Shown: positions 7,547 to 28,856 of the stretch, one piece after another
Numbering within the stretch: position 1 is the first letter of the stretch
How the letters are laid out: each line of letters begins with the position of its first letter
Source of the DNA: a virus
IMG/VR virus record: IMGVR_UViG_3300036668_000293
Span: 1 to 34,033 of that record
DNA length: 34,033 bases
Direction: 5' to 3' (one strand)
Notes under the pieces: model-generated
What the model was told of the DNA's origin: nothing
The model's input: only the letters and a program-made list of their open reading frames with translations
Database searches by the model: none
Made by a program: the position numbers and the translations under genes

Positions 7547-9739
7547 TTACATAAAATGCTGATTTGAATCTATTTTTTCTACTAATTCCCTGTATAACAG
7601 ATAACCTTTTTTTAATTTTCCGCTTATTCTTATTGGTTTTAATTCCATTTTATGTTTTAGGCAAATCCTCTTTATATCGTATTTTGTTATTTTATATGCA
7701 AAGTAGGTATTCATATAATTGCAAATTTCACCTTGATTTAAAACAGTTTCATCTTGATGCTCGTCTGTTCTTTGTAATGAAAATTTAGTAAAAAATAAAT
7801 CTTCAGACGCTTCAATTTCTACATTTTGCGATGTGTTTTTATTTAAGTATTCTATTTCTTCTTTAGAAAATATTCTAAATTCAAATCCAGAATTATATAA
7901 ATTTTCCGCGCATTTTAATAATTTGTCTTTGTCAAAACTTACTGCTTCATTATATTTTACGCTTTCAAAATCTATAGGCAAGATCCTTCTATTTCCCGTT
8001 TCGTCTTTTAAAACGGAATTATCATTGGTTGTACCGCAAAGCATAGTTCTACGCTTTAAATCAACGTCTAAACGACCATAAGGAAGTCTAACTGTTATTT
8101 TATTTTTTTCGGTAATCTTTTTAAAATTCTTTACGTCTTTATGTGCCATACCTCCAAATTCATCATTAAGCATAATCATTGATGTTGCCATACGTTTAAG
8201 AACGTCCTTTCCTCCTTCTTCCATGCTTTCGTCAATAAAATAACGCCTTAATTCTTTTGGCAACATATTTCTAAAAAATGAAGTCTTGCCACTGGCTTGT
8301 TTGCCGCATAAAACTAAAACTAAAGGCGAAACTTCTTCATGATCGTACGAACTTGTCCAATTGTGAATCGCTCCTACAAGCCACTTTTTTAATACCCAGC
8401 GATTAAATTCATTATAAGGCAAAATTAAGTCCGCATATCTATCTATTTCGTCGCCTATCGGCTGGCTGTCATTGTTTTTAAAATAATTATAAATAGGATC
8501 AAAAGATTTAGATTTAGAATTAAATATTAATTGTGAAACATCTGTAGCTGTTACTTTAAAATCAAAGTATTTTTTAGCATGGACCACTATACTATTAATG
8601 ATTTCATCGTTTACAGGATTACCTTCAAACTCATAAATCTGATTAAATTCATTTTTTGAAATAGGATAGTTTTCTTTTATAAAATTGTCTAAAATTACGG
8701 TTTCGTTTTCCTCGTTTTCTATGCGTTTAACAAAGTTTTCTTTGCAATCAATTAATTGTTTTATAAAAGCTTCGTCGTCGGTTTTAACTCCTAATATTGC
8801 CAAAGTATCAATAACTCCTTTAGGCGTCATTATTTGATCGTTTGCCTTGCCAACTGCAACCCTTTTTATTATTTGCTTTGAAGTTTCTGAATATAACTCA
8901 CATCCAGCTTCTTTGGCGTGGTAGTAGAAAGTAGAAATAGAAACGCCCCCAGTTTTTAAAAATTTCTTGTATTGGCTTTCAATTCTAATAGGATCATACT
9001 TTGATCCATTTTGGCAAATAGTTTTAAAATATTTAAGGCCAGCATCTCCAAAATGTGAACCAATAGAAAACCCAATTTCGCAAAAAGTTTTGTAATCTTC
9101 TTTACATAAATCAATACCTTTATTTTGTATTTGGTCCATAATAAAGCCAAAGTCATCTTTAGCAAAAAAGAACGTTTCTTTTTTTACTTTTTTAGCGGGT
9201 GCTTTTTTTGCTTTAAAAGTTTCAGATTTTTCATTTACGAAAATATCTATGTCATAGCTAATATACCTTAATCGAGAAACGTCCTTACAAGACTGATCTA
9301 TATCTACATCAAAATTATCTGAGTAATATTGAGCTAATCCGTGAAAAGATTCAAGGAATAAATCGGAATTTATTTTTACAAATACAACAAGTCCTGTTCC
9401 AGATACCGAACGATTAGAGCAAAATGTATATTTGTCTGCATCAATTCTTTTGCGAAGTTCCGTGTTGACATCGCAATCAATATCTATCAAAATAAGTCCG
9501 TTCATTTCTGAAATATTTGCTACTGAACGGCTATTTTGTTTCATAGTGCAGCTTCCGGTAATTGCGGGCAGTTTGCTTTTTATTTCTGTGTACTTTTTTT
9601 TGTCGGTTTTGTTTGCTCTGGCTTCAAAAATTATACTTTGATGTTCGCCATTTTTTACGAGTTCTACATATTTTGCAAAATCAATAGTAATATTATCTTT
9701 GTCGTGGTGGGTGCGGTATTTTGAGAATTTTAATTCCAT
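7547..9739 (-). CDS. Primase-helicase (BT4734-like / PriCT / VirE-type ATPase)
   Basis: A 730-residue replication protein. Residues 1-170 form a BT4734-like primase domain with acidic LILIDIDCD (82-90). A PriCT-like helical domain follows (about 185-285). The C-terminal superfamily 3-like ATPase of the VirE/VapE type has Walker A CGKQASGKTS (478-487), Walker B MIMLNDEFGG (521-530) and the sensor-like TNDNSVLKDETGNRR (571-585). It should prime and unwind DNA at the origin; the iteron array begins 6 bases beyond its stop codon. The gene starts 2 bases after the homing endonuclease stop. Fusions like this are usual in Bacteroidota phages. Confidence 0.85.
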   Translation of the reverse strand: MELKFSKYRTHHDKDNITIDFAKYVELVKNGEHQSIIFEARANKTDKKKYTEIKSKLPAITGSCTMKQNSRSVANISEMNGLILIDIDCDVNTELRKRIDADKYTFCSNRSVSGTGLVVFVKINSDLFLESFHGLAQYYSDNFDVDIDQSCKDVSRLRYISYDIDIFVNEKSETFKAKKAPAKKVKKETFFFAKDDFGFIMDQIQNKGIDLCKEDYKTFCEIGFSIGSHFGDAGLKYFKTICQNGSKYDPIRIESQYKKFLKTGGVSISTFYYHAKEAGCELYSETSKQIIKRVAVGKANDQIMTPKGVIDTLAILGVKTDDEAFIKQLIDCKENFVKRIENEENETVILDNFIKENYPISKNEFNQIYEFEGNPVNDEIINSIVVHAKKYFDFKVTATDVSQLIFNSKSKSFDPIYNYFKNNDSQPIGDEIDRYADLILPYNEFNRWVLKKWLVGAIHNWTSSYDHEEVSPLVLVLCGKQASGKTSFFRNMLPKELRRYFIDESMEEGGKDVLKRMATSMIMLNDEFGGMAHKDVKNFKKITEKNKITVRLPYGRLDVDLKRRTMLCGTTNDNSVLKDETGNRRILPIDFESVKYNEAVSFDKDKLLKCAENLYNSGFEFRIFSKEEIEYLNKNTSQNVEIEASEDLFFTKFSLQRTDEHQDETVLNQGEICNYMNTYFAYKITKYDIKRICLKHKMELKPIRISGKLKKGYLLYRELVEKIDSNQHFM

Positions 9740-9741
9740 AG

Positions 9742-10413
9742 TTAAGCGTATTTAAATTGAGTTTTATTTTTTCTCTTACCTGACATTTTTTGTCTAAAAG
9801 AACCTAAATTAAATCCATAAAGAATACATATTTCTTTTGAGTTGTTGTAAAAAACTCCTGTATGAAAATCTAATATTATTTTTTGTTTTGACATAGATGA
9901 TTTAAGAGCATGATCTTTTGATTTTTTTTTGCCTTTAGATGCAATACTCATTTTAAATCTTGTTTCAGGACTTACTAATTTTGATTTTTGAGCTATTGAC
10001 ATTTTTAATCTTGTTTCGTTTGAAATATTTTTTCTAATAAACGATAATTTTGCCCTTGTTTCTTCTGTTACAATTCTATTTCTGTTTGCAATTGATAATT
10101 TACGCCTTGTTTCTTCTGACAATCTACCATTTTTATCTTCTGTATTTGTTAGTAATAAATTTAGCCCGTTTTTGCCAATGCACTGATATAAATCTTGGTA
10201 ATATCTTTCTAATTCATTTAATTCAGAAACAGTGCACTCTATTATAACTTCAAATTTATGATTTGCAGCACCATATTTTTTTAATGAATTATATATTTTA
10301 GGTTGCCTGATACAGTGCGTTTTTTTGTAGAATTTAAATCTTCTTTCTATGTCAACGCTTTGAGCAATATAAACTCTTTTTTTAGGGTTTGTGATTTTGT
10401 AAATTCCTATCAT
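9742..10413 (-). CDS. GIY-YIG homing endonuclease with NUMOD3 repeats
   Basis: A 223-residue free-standing homing endonuclease. The N-terminal GIY-YIG nuclease has GIY at 3-5, YIA at 15-17 in place of YIG, Arg24/Arg25 and the metal-binding Glu69 (LNELERYYQDLY). Four NUMOD3-type DNA-binding repeats follow (SEETRRKLS, TEETRAKLS, SNETRLKMS, SPETRFKMS; residues 99-156), then a NUMOD1-like C-terminal module (FYNNSKEICILYGFNLGSF). It probably cuts phages lacking it and so spreads into this site between helicase and primase. It has its own promoter and structured leader (10414-10529). The Ala for Gly change in the second motif may lower activity. Confidence 0.88.
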   Translation of the reverse strand: MIGIYKITNPKKRVYIAQSVDIERRFKFYKKTHCIRQPKIYNSLKKYGAANHKFEVIIECTVSELNELERYYQDLYQCIGKNGLNLLLTNTEDKNGRLSEETRRKLSIANRNRIVTEETRAKLSFIRKNISNETRLKMSIAQKSKLVSPETRFKMSIASKGKKKSKDHALKSSMSKQKIILDFHTGVFYNNSKEICILYGFNLGSFRQKMSGKRKNKTQFKYA

Positions 10414-10529
10414 GATATTTTAAATAAAAATAGCCCACAATTTCGGGAGTGCAGTCCCTACTTTTGTGAGCTTTTTAAAAATTTCTTTAATAATATTGAA
10501 CCTGCACGAACAATATTAAAGCAAATATA
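10414..10529 (-). promoter_or_regulatory. Kissing-loop leader RNA, copy B (before the GIY-YIG gene)
   Basis: On the minus strand TATATTTG (10522-10529) is followed after 4 nt by hairpin 1, stem AATATTG/CAATATT (10511-10517 with 10492-10498), whose 12-nt loop contains GTGCAG. After a 19-nt linker comes hairpin 2 (10432-10472), whose 6-nt apical loop is CTGCAC, the exact complement. The ATG follows 18 nt after hairpin 2. The outer stem of hairpin 1 can extend with CTTT/AAAG past a 3-nt bulge. The same layout is seen at 12118-12221 and 28255-28385. Confidence 0.7.
10422..10472 (-). terminator. Intrinsic-terminator-like hairpin in the GIY-YIG leader
   Basis: Minus-strand stem AGCTCACAA/TTGTGGGCT (one G-U pair), internal loop, inner stem GGGA/TCCC closed by the hexaloop CTGCAC, then ATTTTTATTT. 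It lies between a promoter and the gene that promoter should serve, so it may attenuate that gene; it could also end transcripts coming from the helicase gene. Confidence 0.7.
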
Positions 10530-10539
10530 CAACTAAATA

Positions 10540-12117
10540 TCATAGTTTATATTTTTTTTCTAGTTTTTTAATCAATATTTCTTTTTGTCTTTTTAAAGTT
10601 CTATTCGCTGAACTTGGCAAATCTGAGTTTATAATTTTAAAGTAGTTTAGTTTTAAGTGAGTATTTAAAACTCGTTCAACTCCTGTATTTCTATTTGATA
10701 AAAATTGCTCTTTAGGCACTTTTTTAAACATCTGGTAGATTTGCGAATTTAGAATCTTTAATGCAAATATTTTATCTTTATTTATTTTTTGGCAATACTT
10801 GATTATTTTTTTACCGTCTGGAGGTACTATATTTTGTTGAACAGCTAACCCTTCATCGATTTTTATTTCTTTTATCTTGCAATTATTATAATCGCATGCA
10901 GGGCAAATACAGGTTCTTTCTTTCATAAGCTCCCCGCAATTATCACACTCGGTAACTTCTTCATCTGTTGGCTCTTTTTTGGCTTTATAATCGTTATTAC
11001 CCCAAAATATTTTTTCCCAGTCAAAAGTATCGCTCCAACGTCCGAACCTTGCAATATTCCCTCCACCGTCAATGTGAATAAATCTATCTTTGAATATTTT
11101 GTTTGTAGTTCTTGATGCACGGCCTAAAATCTGAATATACAGATTTAAAGATGAAATTCTACGAGATGCGATAATGGCTTGCACATCCGTCACGTCAAAA
11201 CCTTTAGTAAAAACACCAACGTTAAATAAAATTGCCCCATCTGTATTTCTAAATTTTTCAACTACTTCGCTTCTACTGTAATCGGTTTCATTCACACTAT
11301 CATACATCAAACAATTAGGCACGCCCGCCTCAATAAATAAATCGTAAATAAATTTATTTAAAGTTGTGTTTTGGGTGAATATCATAGTTTTTTTACCTTT
11401 GCAATATTCGTTGTAATTTGCTAAAACATCCATTTGGTATTTTTCGTTAAAAACTTGTTCGCTATTGGAAACTTCGCCAAAGGCATCAAATTTAAAATCT
11501 TCCTCTTCTATTGGTATTGCATAATTTTCATCTACTACTAAAAATCCGTCTGTAATAAGATCAGCTATTGGAATACCAACGATAATATCTTGAAACAAAT
11601 CAGCAAGAACAAAATCTTTTGTAAATTCTATTTTTTCGCAGCAATCACATTGTATTTTATTCATTACTTTATGATTAAAACAAAAGAAATAATTATCTTT
11701 TCTATTGCTTACTGGTGTTGCCGTAAAACCTATAACTTTGCAATTTGCAATCTCTAGTATTTTCTCGTAAATAATTACATGGCACTCGTCAATTATAATT
11801 AAATCAAAATCATAAATTAAATCAGGATCTTTTTTTAATCTACTTTTTAAAGTTTGCACCATTGAAACAACAATTTTTGTTTTAGGAAATATTTTGTCTT
11901 TTGCTTCAAAAGTAGATGCGTCTGTAAAATGTTTTGCAGTTTGTCCTACAAGCTCACGGCTATCTACAAGTATCAATACACGTCCAGCATATTGCTTTGC
12001 GAGGGTTGTGAAAATTACCGTTTTTCCTCCTCCAGTAGCTAATTGAACACAAATTCTTTGATTTGTATTGCTGGTTATTTTGTTTAATAAATCTTCTTGG
12101 TATGGTCTTAATTCCAT
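10540..12117 (-). CDS. DEAD/DEAH-box superfamily 2 helicase
   Basis: A 525-residue helicase. Motif I ATGGGKT (27-33), motif II DECH (110-113), motif III FTATP (131-135), motif V TKGFDVTDV (304-312) and motif VI QILGRASR (329-336) are all present, so both RecA-like lobes look intact. Two zinc-binding patches are visible: CDCC near residue 157 and a C-terminal ribbon CDNCG...CICPAC (391-408). The start is placed at MELRPYQEDL; an upstream ATG in frame falls inside the terminator-like hairpin of the leader. It probably remodels DNA during replication or recombination with the nearby annealing protein and SSB. Confidence 0.88.
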   Translation of the reverse strand: MELRPYQEDLLNKITSNTNQRICVQLATGGGKTVIFTTLAKQYAGRVLILVDSRELVGQTAKHFTDASTFEAKDKIFPKTKIVVSMVQTLKSRLKKDPDLIYDFDLIIIDECHVIIYEKILEIANCKVIGFTATPVSNRKDNYFFCFNHKVMNKIQCDCCEKIEFTKDFVLADLFQDIIVGIPIADLITDGFLVVDENYAIPIEEEDFKFDAFGEVSNSEQVFNEKYQMDVLANYNEYCKGKKTMIFTQNTTLNKFIYDLFIEAGVPNCLMYDSVNETDYSRSEVVEKFRNTDGAILFNVGVFTKGFDVTDVQAIIASRRISSLNLYIQILGRASRTTNKIFKDRFIHIDGGGNIARFGRWSDTFDWEKIFWGNNDYKAKKEPTDEEVTECDNCGELMKERTCICPACDYNNCKIKEIKIDEGLAVQQNIVPPDGKKIIKYCQKINKDKIFALKILNSQIYQMFKKVPKEQFLSNRNTGVERVLNTHLKLNYFKIINSDLPSSANRTLKRQKEILIKKLEKKYKL

Positions 12118-12221
12118 ATTTTTTAAATAAAAAAAGACCCAATAAATGTGAGTCGGCACATCTAAAGAGTCTTAATAATATTTTCATTTACTGACTTCCG
12201 ACTTTCAGTTAAGCAAATATA
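12118..12221 (-). promoter_or_regulatory. Kissing-loop leader RNA, copy C (before the helicase gene)
   Basis: On the minus strand TATATTTG (12214-12221) is followed after 4 nt by hairpin 1, stem ACTGA/TCAGT (12205-12209 with 12190-12194), with a 10-nt loop containing AGTCGG. After a 17-nt linker comes hairpin 2 (12135-12172) with the 6-nt apical loop CCGACT, the exact complement of AGTCGG. The helicase ATG follows 17 nt after hairpin 2. Stem and loop sequences differ from the other two copies while the layout is the same. Confidence 0.7.
12128..12172 (-). terminator. Intrinsic-terminator-like hairpin in the helicase leader
   Basis: Minus-strand outer stem AGACTC/GGGTCT (one G-U pair) and inner stem GATGTG/CACATT around the hexaloop CCGACT, followed directly by a run of T residues (plus-strand A run 12128-12135). 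The tract is a good intrinsic-terminator tail. Its place between promoter and start codon suggests attenuation. Confidence 0.75.
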
Positions 12222-14228: not shown

Positions 14229-14245
14229 AATTCCTATATTTTGTT

Positions 14246-14300
14246 TTAGCTTTATTGCTTGTGCAAATATACAATACTTTTACATTAGTTTGCAAATATA
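14246..14300 (-). promoter_or_regulatory. Early promoter with shared 14-bp start-site box
   Basis: On the minus strand TATATTTG (14264-14271) follows TTTG (14293-14296) after 21 bases. Just downstream, at the expected transcript start, is AGCAATAAAGCTAA (14246-14259). The same 14 bases occur at the same place after the promoter at 15614. A second TATATTTG at 14293-14300 may give another start. The promoter drives the operon beginning at 14228. Confidence 0.7.
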
Positions 14301-15576: not shown

Positions 15577-15595
15577 AATTTCTATTTTTTAATTA

Positions 15596-15643
15596 TTAGC
15601 TTTATTGCTGGTGTAAAGATACAACTAATATTTACATAAACAA
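15596..15643 (-). promoter_or_regulatory. Early promoter sharing the 14-bp start-site box
   Basis: On the minus strand TTG (15641-15643), a 19-base spacer and TATCTTTA (15614-15621) form a near-consensus promoter. AGCAATAAAGCTAA at 15596-15609 is identical to the box after the promoter at 14264, in the same position. The box contains AGC/GCT half sites and may be an operator or a conserved 5' leader. Confidence 0.7.
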
Positions 15644-15670
15644 TACTTTTTTATAATTATTTTTATTTAT

Positions 15671-16721: not shown

Positions 16722-16814
16722 CAAAGATAAATTATAAGTAGATATGTAATAGTTAATAAAATGTTAAATTTTACATTAGTGTTATTTTATTAATCATAAA
16801 TGTTCCTATATTTG
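16722..16814. promoter_or_regulatory. Divergent promoter / operator region
   Basis: A minus-strand -7 element TATCTTTG (16722-16729) and a plus-strand TATATTTG (16807-16814) face away from each other. Between them lie a perfect 10-bp inverted repeat, TTAATAAAAT (16753-16762) with ATTTTATTAA (16784-16793), and a near-palindrome ATGTTAAATTTTACAT (16761-16776). The arms are about three helical turns apart. This looks like a switch controlling both transcription directions. Confidence 0.6.
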
Positions 16815-16828
16815 TAAAAAAAAATATT

Positions 16829-16963
16829 ATGAAAGATTTTTTATTGGCTCGCATTGAAGCCCTGGAGAAAAAAGTAAAACAGTTAGAAGATGAAATACAC
16901 ACTAACGCACTTAAAATTATTGTCAACGATCCGATTTTTGAAAACCCTATACAAAATGAATAA
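16829..16963 (+). CDS. Small coiled-coil protein, 44 residues (plus-strand island)
   Basis: The frame starts MKDFLLARIEALEKKVKQLE and ends PIFENPIQNE. The first half is a coiled coil. The ATG lies 14 bases after a TATATTTG promoter element, so the leader is very short. It is the first of three small genes that run against the strand of the rest of the genome. Family not recognised. Confidence 0.6.
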   Translation: MKDFLLARIEALEKKVKQLEDEIHTNALKIIVNDPIFENPIQNE

Positions 16964-17057
16964 AATACAACAACTTCAAAGTAAAATTCACTTAATCACA
17001 GGCAATGGAGAAGTGATGGGATTCTTTAATGAAATGTTGGGTATTTCGGCTGGGTAA
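16956..17057 (+). CDS. Possible 33-residue protein
   Basis: A short frame, MNKIQQLQSKIHLITGNGEV continuing to EMLGISAG, overlaps the end of the 44-residue gene by 8 bases and stops right before the attC-like hairpin. Overlap and spacing favour a real coupled gene, but at this length chance cannot be excluded. No function recognised. Confidence 0.4.
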   Translation: MNKIQQLQSKIHLITGNGEVMGFFNEMLGISAG

Positions 17058-17058
17058 G

Positions 17059-17140
17059 CTTGCTCCTAACGTTTCGCAGCCTTGTACTGCCGCCTATGCG
17101 GTTGCGTATATTCGGCGGTAGTTCAAGACTGCTGTTAGTG
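17059..17140 (+). repeat. attC-like imperfect hairpin 1
   Basis: It begins with CTTGCTCCTAAC (17059-17070). CTAAC (17066-17070) pairs with GTTAG (17134-17138), followed by an uneven unpaired spacer. An inner stem pairs 17076-17084 with 17124-17132 (one mismatch), and a further stem pairs 17086-17094 with 17114-17122 (one G-T). AAC/GTT end boxes, an unpaired spacer and an imperfect stem are the layout of integron attC sites. The base composition is more GC-rich than the surroundings. Confidence 0.5.
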
Positions 17141-17187
17141 ACTGGACGGATTTTTACACTAAATATTAATTAAAAAATTAAATAAAA

Positions 17188-17364
17188 ATGGCAAAAATAA
17201 AAATGTCAAAATACGATTTACTTGATAAATTTCAAGCGTATGAAAGTGAAGCTACTTACACAACTGGTAATAAATCAACGCATCAAATGATTGCAATGGA
17301 AGATGTCGAAAAGGTTATTGATGAATTAATTGAGCATTTAGGCAAATGGCAGAAAATTTATTAG
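17188..17364 (+). CDS. Small protein, 58 residues, inside a possible cassette
   Basis: The frame starts MAKIKMSKYDLLDKFQAYES and ends IEHLGKWQKIY; MSKYD at codon 6 is another possible start. It is an acidic, helical protein with no family recognised. It lies between two hairpins that share the 12-bp box CTTGCTCCTAAC, so it may be a mobile gene cassette. No promoter was seen within the cassette; it probably relies on readthrough from 16807. Confidence 0.6.
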   Translation: MAKIKMSKYDLLDKFQAYESEATYTTGNKSTHQMIAMEDVEKVIDELIEHLGKWQKIY

Positions 17365-17380
17365 TAGCAATTAACGTAGT

Positions 17381-17435
17381 CTTGCTCCTAACACGCGTAT
17401 AGGCGCAGTTTTAATTGCGCCTATACCTTGTTAAT
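17381..17435 (+). repeat. attC-like hairpin 2 / convergent-gene stem-loop
   Basis: It begins with a second copy of CTTGCTCCTAAC (17381-17392). TAAC (17389-17392) pairs with GTTA (17430-17433), spacers of 4 and 3 nt follow, then a perfect 11-bp stem GTATAGGCGCA/TGCGCCTATAC (17397-17407 with 17416-17426) and an 8-nt loop. The last codons and the stop of the spanin gene on the other strand lie in this hairpin. It may also act as a terminator between convergent genes, though no strong T-run follows. Confidence 0.55.
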
Positions 17436-28254: not shown

Positions 28255-28385
28255 TTGTTATTAATTTTAAACACTATATTTGCAAAGCAATCTACTACTT
28301 GCGTTAAAATATTAGTCAATAGACTAACCGAAACCCTTAACGATGTGTAGTAGCTCGTTAGGGGTTTTACTTTATAAATAAGATT
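28255..28385 (+). promoter_or_regulatory. Kissing-loop leader RNA, copy A (plus strand)
   Basis: TTG (28255-28257), 17 bases and TATATTTG (28275-28282) form the promoter. Hairpin 1 begins 4 nt later: GCAA/TTGC (28287-28290 with 28299-28302), loop TCTACTAC. A small hairpin TTAGTC/GACTAA (28312-28327) follows. Hairpin 2 (28331-28367) carries GTAGTAG in its loop, the complement of CTACTAC. A competing helix is possible: CTACTAC plus CGTTAA with TTAACG plus GTAGTAG, which would break hairpin 2. The ATG is 18 nt after hairpin 2. Confidence 0.7.
28331..28374 (+). terminator. Intrinsic-terminator-like hairpin in the plus-strand leader
   Basis: A 13-bp stem, AAACCCTTAACGA/TCGTTAGGGGTTT, with one G-U pair and an 11-nt loop, followed by TACTTTAT. 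No plus-strand gene lies upstream, so its only evident role is to attenuate the gene at 28386 or to define the 3' end of a short RNA of about 85 nt. Confidence 0.65.
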
Positions 28386-28856
28386 ATGGAAAAAACATGT
28401 AAAAAATGTGGAGAAACAAAAGATGTAAGTTTGTTTGTAAAAGATAAAAGAAAATCAATAGGCATAATACTTACTTGCAAAGATTGCTCTAAAAATAGAG
28501 TTAAAGAATTAAAAGAATTAAATCCACATAAAAGTATTTTATACAATAAAGATTACTACCAAAAAAACAAAAAAATAATAGATTTAAATAATAAAGAATA
28601 TTATTTAAAAAACAGAGAAGTTATTATTAAATATAAAAAAGAATTCGGTTTAAAAAATAATTACGCTATAAATAAATCTAAAGAATATAGAAACAATAAT
28701 AAACTTAAAATAAAATCATACAAAAATAATATGTACGAAACAATTACAGATGTTTACGCTAAAGCAATATTAAGAAGTAAAGGCTTTACAAAAGAACAAA
28801 TAACAACTGAACTAATAGAAGTACAAAGAATAATAATTAAAACAAAAAGATTATGA
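28386..28856 (+). CDS. Zinc-ribbon protein related to HNH-endonuclease N-termini
   Basis: A 156-residue basic protein. A four-Cys zinc ribbon (C5, C8, C31, C34: CKKCGETKD and CKDCSK) is followed by repeated DYYQKNKKII/EYYLKNREVI-type helical units (about 57-83). This is the N-terminal layout of many phage HNH endonucleases, but no HNH motif follows. The end (AKAILRSKGFTKEQITTELIEVQR) is a module seen at the C-terminus of small phage proteins. It may be a DNA-binding remnant or a regulator. It overlaps the next gene by ATGA and is preceded by the structured leader. Confidence 0.68.
   Translation: MEKTCKKCGETKDVSLFVKDKRKSIGIILTCKDCSKNRVKELKELNPHKSILYNKDYYQKNKKIIDLNNKEYYLKNREVIIKYKKEFGLKNNYAINKSKEYRNNNKLKIKSYKNNMYETITDVYAKAILRSKGFTKEQITTELIEVQRIIIKTKRL

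Follow-up and report, generated by a model that had tools for sequence, protein, structure and literature searches.

Leaders with covarying kissing hairpins and a predicted terminator upstream of replication and endonuclease genes in Bacteroidota phages: candidate transcription attenuators

The guanidine-IV riboswitch (GGAM-1/mepA; PMC7736828, PMC11611296) and its variant Gd4v (PMC9788692) consist of two hairpins linked by a kissing contact. The element is an ON switch, guanidine binding raising read-through, and it has been proposed that the rigid pair of kissing hairpins stretches the linker such that the outer pairs of the terminator do not form (PMC7736828). Kissing is treated as the antiterminated state in single-molecule work (PMC11611296), and formation of the complete terminator stem is noted to leave a shorter linker and possibly to prevent the helices from forming (PMC9788692). 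The conserved loop nucleotides of guanidine-IV form the ligand pocket (in the second loop, the positions with 97% identity include G66, U67 and G72 of the L. lactis RNA), and the element is found upstream of transporter genes (sugE/mepA-type exporters) and guanidine-related genes.

The phage leaders described here share with guanidine-IV the two kissing hairpins, a 3′ hairpin that has the features of an intrinsic (Rho-independent) terminator upstream of the start codon, a proposed role of kissing in stopping terminator closure, and a location before several gene families. Their loops, however, vary freely as complementary pairs and lack the conserved nucleotides of guanidine-IV, which sets them apart on the published loop description. 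Furthermore, the genes downstream encode helicases, endonucleases, methylases and replication proteins, so that the gene association of guanidine-IV fails, and Rfam gave no match for the whole window, nor for one of its leaders (copy A) at a permissive threshold. Given the absence of the conserved loop nucleotides, the different gene context and the lack of an Rfam model match, we do not assign these leaders to guanidine-IV.

Two other known systems are relevant. In plasmid antisense-RNA attenuators of the pT181 and pIP501 type, kissing contacts of leader hairpins decide on early termination and the loop addresses give specificity, but the partner is a separate counter-transcribed RNA, whereas in the phage leaders, which are alike in having kissing hairpins, the apparent partner lies within the same leader; no counter-transcript was inferred for them, and a terminated leader might itself take that role. 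The put RNA of phage HK022 is an early phage leader with two hairpins that affects termination; it acts on RNA polymerase and on distant terminators, unlike the present leaders, in which the terminator is part of the element and the loop sequences are not conserved.

The window, i.e., the whole stretch of DNA that was analyzed, is a 34 kb virus record (34,033 nt). It reads as a Bacteroidota tailed phage, judging from its TATATTTG promoters and from the helicase, the VapE-type primase and the DUF3127 protein, whose gene order matches that of Flavobacterium Muminvirus phages. The published promoter consensus is TTTG/TAnnTTTG (PMC6847099). As described in the initial annotation, three leaders (copies A, B and C) are present in which the promoter TATATTTG is followed by a 5′ hairpin, a terminator-like hairpin and an ATG. 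All three follow a common plan whereby hairpin 1 starts 3-4 nt after TATATTTG and is separated by a linker from a GC-closed hairpin with T-rich sequence, after which comes the ATG; the promoters and the terminators are features predicted from the sequence.

Copy A is on the plus strand. Its promoter, of the Bacteroidota -33/-7 type, spans 28255-28282 (TTG at 28255-28257, 17 nt, and TATATTTG at 28275-28282). Hairpin 1, GCAA[TCTACTAC]TTGC (28287-28302), carries the kissing segment CTACTAC (28292-28298) and is followed by a linker hairpin, TTAGTC-AATA-GACTAA (28312-28327), which A-type relatives also have, with other sequences. The terminator-like hairpin with its U-tract (28330-28373) has the stem 28330-28343/28355-28368 and the loop TGTGTAGTAGC, in which GTAGTAG (28347-28353) is the second kissing segment. 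The GC-rich part of this stem is about 10-11 bp, the remainder being A-U pairing with the U-tract (TTTTACTTT), which is mediocre. The ATG at 28386 opens a gene for an endonuclease VII/HNH-like protein of 156 aa (28386-28856, plus strand; phrog_2340, phrog_1035).

Copies B and C are on the minus strand. Copy B, running from 10529 to 10414, has its promoter TATATTTG at 10522-10529 and hairpin 1, TAATATTG[TTCGTGCAGGTT]CAATATTA, at 10491-10518 with the kissing segment GTGCAG (10507-10502); its predicted terminator (10421-10472) comprises the outer stem 10472-10464/10440-10432, the inner stem GGGA/TCCC, the loop CTGCAC (10454-10449) and a U-tract, and the gene behind it encodes a GIY-YIG homing endonuclease with NUMOD3 (9742-10413, minus strand). 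Copy C, from 12221 to 12118, has TATATTTG at 12214-12221 and hairpin 1, ACTGA[AAGTCGGAAG]TCAGT, at 12190-12209 with the kissing segment AGTCGG (12203-12198); its predicted terminator (12131-12173) is built of the outer stem AAGACTC/GGGTCTT, the inner stem TAGATGTG/CACATTTA, the loop CCGACT (12156-12151) and a U-tract, and precedes a ResIII/DEAD helicase gene (10540-12117, minus strand). A generic terminator scan, which permits loops of up to 8 nt and no internal loops, did not call copies A and B.

Elsewhere in the window, two genes on the minus strand have a common 5′ leader (14229-14300 and 15577-15660), AGCAATAAAGCTAA followed by ATAGAAATTATG or ATAGGAATTATG, without kissing hairpins. A region free of ORFs of annotated size (about 16725-17410, minus strand) contains strong hairpins (GGTATAGGCGCA...TGCGCCTATAC) and a repeated GTTAGGAGCAA.

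The loop of hairpin 1 and the terminator loop are complementary over 7, 6 and 6 nt in copies A, B and C, respectively, as initially reported, and the loops of different copies can pair over 3 nt at most. The original estimate of 1 in 4096 per match applies to a fixed position; with the loop sizes taken into account by loop shuffling, each match is less extreme (p = 0.0014, 0.0022 and 0.0032 for A, B and C), whereas the product, ~1e-8, still makes chance a poor explanation of all three. The idea that the folds are mutually exclusive has fared less well. The proposed antiterminator of copy A, CTACTAC+CGTTAA, does exist there and in some near relatives, without compensatory changes; the CGTTAA/TTAACG pairing is partially retained in the relatives L156 (TTAAG/CTTAA) and L218 and absent from L221 as well as from copies B and C, so that exclusivity of the two folds can at best be a trait of the A family. 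It does not hold generally, given that complementarity extends beyond the matched loop segment in few of 69 distinct leaders (10 on the 5′ side and 7 on the 3′ side, by 1-2 nt). This confinement to the loops implies that kissing takes no bases away from the terminator stem.

The initial annotation called for covarying examples in related phages, and many were found in IMG/VR. An alignment-based search for the helicase, which is blind to the leader, yielded 80 loci; among the 78 with enough upstream DNA, 50 carry a leader with complementary loops, representing 21 loop sequences, compared with 4, 5 and 17 in same-sense, reversed and complemented controls. Several more leaders with larger loops, e.g., L176 (GTGAGAAG) and L177 (GTGAGACG), also qualify by eye. 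Helicase homologues have this leader with other loops: that of a 94% identical helicase (L003) has GTGGAG/CTCCAC, that of a 43% identical one (L006) GTGGTCG/CGACCAC, and two further homologues have GTAGAG/CTCTAC (L004) and GGGCAG/CTGCCC (L039).

Furthermore, two DNA patterns were searched in IMG/VR in which hairpin 1 was fixed, its loop left free and the partner loop ignored. For GTATTACAGTTAT-N7-ATAACT, all 48 copies in the loci analyzed, with four loop types, contain an exact 7-nt loop partner. For the copy A type, TATATTTG-N4-GCAA-N8-TTGC, the 7-nt partner is present in 27 of the 45 matches, in six types (CTACTAC, CCACTAC, CCATCAC, CTATCAC, CTCTCAT and GTGGAGA), and the other 18 matches resemble unrelated sequence. 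When 2.1 Mb of phage loci were scanned with a descriptor, 143 matches were obtained at TAT.TTYG promoters against 5-26 in three controls, and 118 against 2-9 at a score of at least 15. At the same score, 0.8 Mb of Bacteroidota chromosomal DNA (loci with chromosomal helicases, judged by titles, from the helicase-alignment contig search) showed no clear excess, with 4 matches against 0-3 in controls. A loose descriptor (any TA..TTTG, loop match of at least 6 nt) was dropped, having produced as many control matches as true ones. The filtered set comprises 69 distinct leaders with 43 loop sequences, and a few of the weakest may be chance matches.

Covariation was counted within families, because a joint MAFFT alignment of all leader classes misaligns the hairpins. 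Among 15 relatives of copy B (set A3), pairing is 100% in hairpin 1, in the outer stem of the terminator and in the kissing helix, with compensatory changes in 15 of 20 pairs and a covariation score of 0.617, compared with at most 0.10 for slid partners. Among eight relatives of copy A (set A4), the kissing helix has double changes at three positions and no broken cells, with a score of 0.344 against a maximum of 0.17. Since most members of both sets were picked for complementary loops, the pattern searches, including the 27 copy-A-type loci, are the cleaner test. Across the relatives, about 40 loop sequences retain complementarity without any common loop nucleotides. That the loops differ between phages yet always change together points to a real gene switch, and we regard the existence of the kissing-hairpin structure, judged by sequence comparison, as practically certain. 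A chance origin of the loop matches in AT-rich intergenic DNA, to which the commonness of isolated 6-nt matches and the outcome of the loose descriptor might lend some credit, is refuted by the compensatory changes and the pattern searches; together with the helicase-upstream and phage-wide counts against controls and the loop shuffling, these leave it a negligible probability.

The suggestion of a portable element in front of unrelated genes, with kissing loops in an attenuator layout, is borne out by the comparison. The genes directly behind the leaders encode helicases, GIY-YIG, HNH and NUMOD4 endonucleases, BT4734-type primases, probable DNA methylases, helix-turn-helix replication-type proteins and proteins without a family. 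The leaders themselves are not simply unrelated in sequence, as had been assumed, given that copies A and B are members of larger sequence families found ahead of the helicase in other phages: the copy A type is found before the helicase in L156-L167 and before an HNH-like gene in the window and in L166, and the copy B type before GIY-YIG in the window and before the helicase in L039. We consider that the hairpins, the loop-loop helix, the position before genes and the portability are established at the level of comparative sequence analysis. The isolate Flavobacterium phage snusmum6-1 has three leaders, at 9708 (GCTTCGAC), 13649 (GTCGTCG) and 14684 (GTGGAACG/CGTTCCAC), which makes bench work possible. 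No convincing leader was seen in Cellulophaga phages phi46:1 and phi12:1, Flavobacterium phages lotta8-1 and Fpv5 or Bacteroides phage BU183P1, three of which were examined in part. A B-family model, which does match phage records, had no match in 4 plus 296 bacterial genomes, with few candidates scored per genome and weak power for other loop families.

Several other features of the related loci deserve mention. Homologues of the gene behind copy B in L011, L012 and L013 have a different leader about 60 nt upstream of GIY-YIG (4036, 3992 and 3639); it could form an H-type pseudoknot, GTTGG[AAGGATTTC]CCAAC with GAAATCC in L013 and GATGC[loop]GCATC with CACTCC in L011 and L012, and is followed by CCATAAATAAATAAA before the ATG. 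In L125, L088, L120, L109 and their relatives, GCAAATATA or GCAAAGATA lies about 15-25 nt upstream of the TATATTTG of the leader; being the reverse of a TATATTTGC/TATCTTTGC box, it suggests back-to-back promoters. The Muminvirus phages L312 (17424-17686) and L311 (18789-19049) contain intergenic regions with many copies of GGTAACC/GGTTACC, which may be an origin or a protein-binding array.

The geometry of the leaders is constrained. The spacing of the kissing segments is tight (median 43 nt, IQR 40.5-46), and none of the loops is palindromic, i.e., the pairs are non-palindromic hetero-pairs. In leaders selected by their loops only, with the stem end located without asking for T, the 8 nt after the stem are 62% T compared with 24-35% elsewhere, as expected of a terminator; the stem ends about 10-25 nt before the AUG. 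By sequence, the region ahead of the start codon is laid out as in an attenuator, with promoter, leader and a predicted intrinsic terminator, but most leaders lack two mutually exclusive pairings, a partial competing helix being found in the A family only. In a geometric estimate that treats hairpin 1, the kissing helix and the terminator as stacked in a straight rod and ignores bending, the linker has to bridge a median of 5.2 A per nt, and in 29% of the loop classes more than 6 A per nt, about the contour limit. With the linker stretched in this manner, kissing and a fully closed terminator would be mechanically opposed.

We hypothesize that these leaders are cis-acting transcription attenuators of Bacteroidota phages in which kissing causes antitermination, a reading to which we give a probability of roughly 0.55. 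Under this scenario, RNA would be started by the host-type promoter TATATTTG and its 5′ end would fold at once into hairpin 1. The predicted intrinsic terminator follows about 43 nt on, its apical loop carrying the exact Watson-Crick complement of loop 1. Hairpin 1 would catch this loop as it emerges, and the two hairpins would stack into one stiff rod, which would stretch the linker (typically 13-19 nt) almost fully and keep the basal terminator pairs beside the U-tract open, letting RNA polymerase continue into the gene. If the kiss does not form or is outcompeted, closure of the terminator would release a short RNA of about 90-100 nt. The kissing helix would thus stand where guanidine-IV has ligand-stabilized kissing. 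We infer the transcript start, termination, the direction of the effect and an input signal, which might be transcription speed, a protein or RNA in trans, as steps of this scheme; if kissing were constitutive and responded to no input, the terminator would serve no purpose. Transcription attenuation as such appears likely and antitermination is its more probable direction, whereas for the tether step we see even odds. The preference for kissing-dependent antitermination stems from the straight-rod linker estimate and the ON-switch precedent of guanidine-IV. Against it speak the poor U-tracts of copy A, L176 and L198, as well as leaders such as L166 and L202, whose linkers are long enough for both states; besides, the strain estimate presumes a straight stack, and a bend would relieve the strain.

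These same long linkers, which can hold both helices together, would fit an attenuator of the opposite sign, in which kissing guides or stabilizes the terminator and so promotes termination and a compact, nuclease-resistant short RNA, with read-through when kissing is prevented. The terminator stem does not need the kissing bases, and, as Lenkeit et al. point out, one might expect ligand binding to stabilize the stem. Nevertheless, guanidine-IV, the precedent of closely similar topology, is an ON switch, a linker of more than 5 A per nt would be needed to accommodate both helices in about half of the loop classes, and no kissing helix is required for the evolution of a stronger terminator; we consider this sign of the effect unlikely. 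Translation control or mRNA stability, with structure near the AUG blocking initiation or protecting the 5′ end and the U-tract being incidental, might be invoked because the stem ends just about 10-25 nt ahead of the AUG and start-near structure tunes initiation in Flavobacterium (PMC6847099). In L319, L339, L357 and L360, the kissing segment CCACTAC occurs a third time, directly before the AUG of a replication-type gene, so that either hairpin 1 or the start region could be the partner of the terminator loop, a hint of additional translational control in these four leaders. However, the sequence behind the stem is rich in T, whereas translation in this phylum is favored by adenines upstream of the start (PMC6847099), and a GC-rich stem base with a T-run behind it is what a terminator typically looks like, so that control of this kind is improbable as a general explanation.

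The predicted terminated leader could also act in trans on nascent leaders with the same address, through contact of loop 2 of the free RNA with loop 1 of the nascent one or the reverse, as a self-made dosage sensor or as a means of inter-phage exclusion. The hetero-pair character of the loops and their fast change between phages are compatible with this possibility, and closure of the terminator would put the kiss in cis under strain and set the loops free. Moreover, leaders of one genome differ in their loops: copies A, B and C do not cross-pair, and none of 16 pairs shares 5 nt, which does not prove orthogonality within genomes, because about 1-1.7 sharing pairs of 16 are expected by chance. 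The tight cis spacing points instead to an interaction within one molecule, and we rate action in trans, including either loop contact, as doubtful. A class of self-addressed switches, in which the terminated leader with its freed loops acts on matching nascent leaders, is accordingly a speculative proposal; if true, each phage gene would have an orthogonal RNA dosage sensor to itself, and the diversification of the loops would determine which phages cross-regulate or exclude each other.

Returning to kissing-dependent antitermination in cis, the leader would be a kissing-loop attenuator that has no recognizable ligand pocket and whose loop addresses vary freely as pairs, a switch that probably decides whether transcription stops or runs on. 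A literature search, whose coverage excluded most subscription papers and preprints, found no description of such attenuators in phages. The leaders appear to be an undescribed and widespread kind of RNA element that regulates replication and endonuclease genes in Bacteroidota phages, about whose gene control little is known. They would separate kissing-loop antitermination from ligand binding. With dozens of natural loop pairs on one scaffold, the guanidine-IV-type mechanism, by tether strain or not, becomes directly testable, and the leaders offer ready-made orthogonal parts for Bacteroidota genetics.
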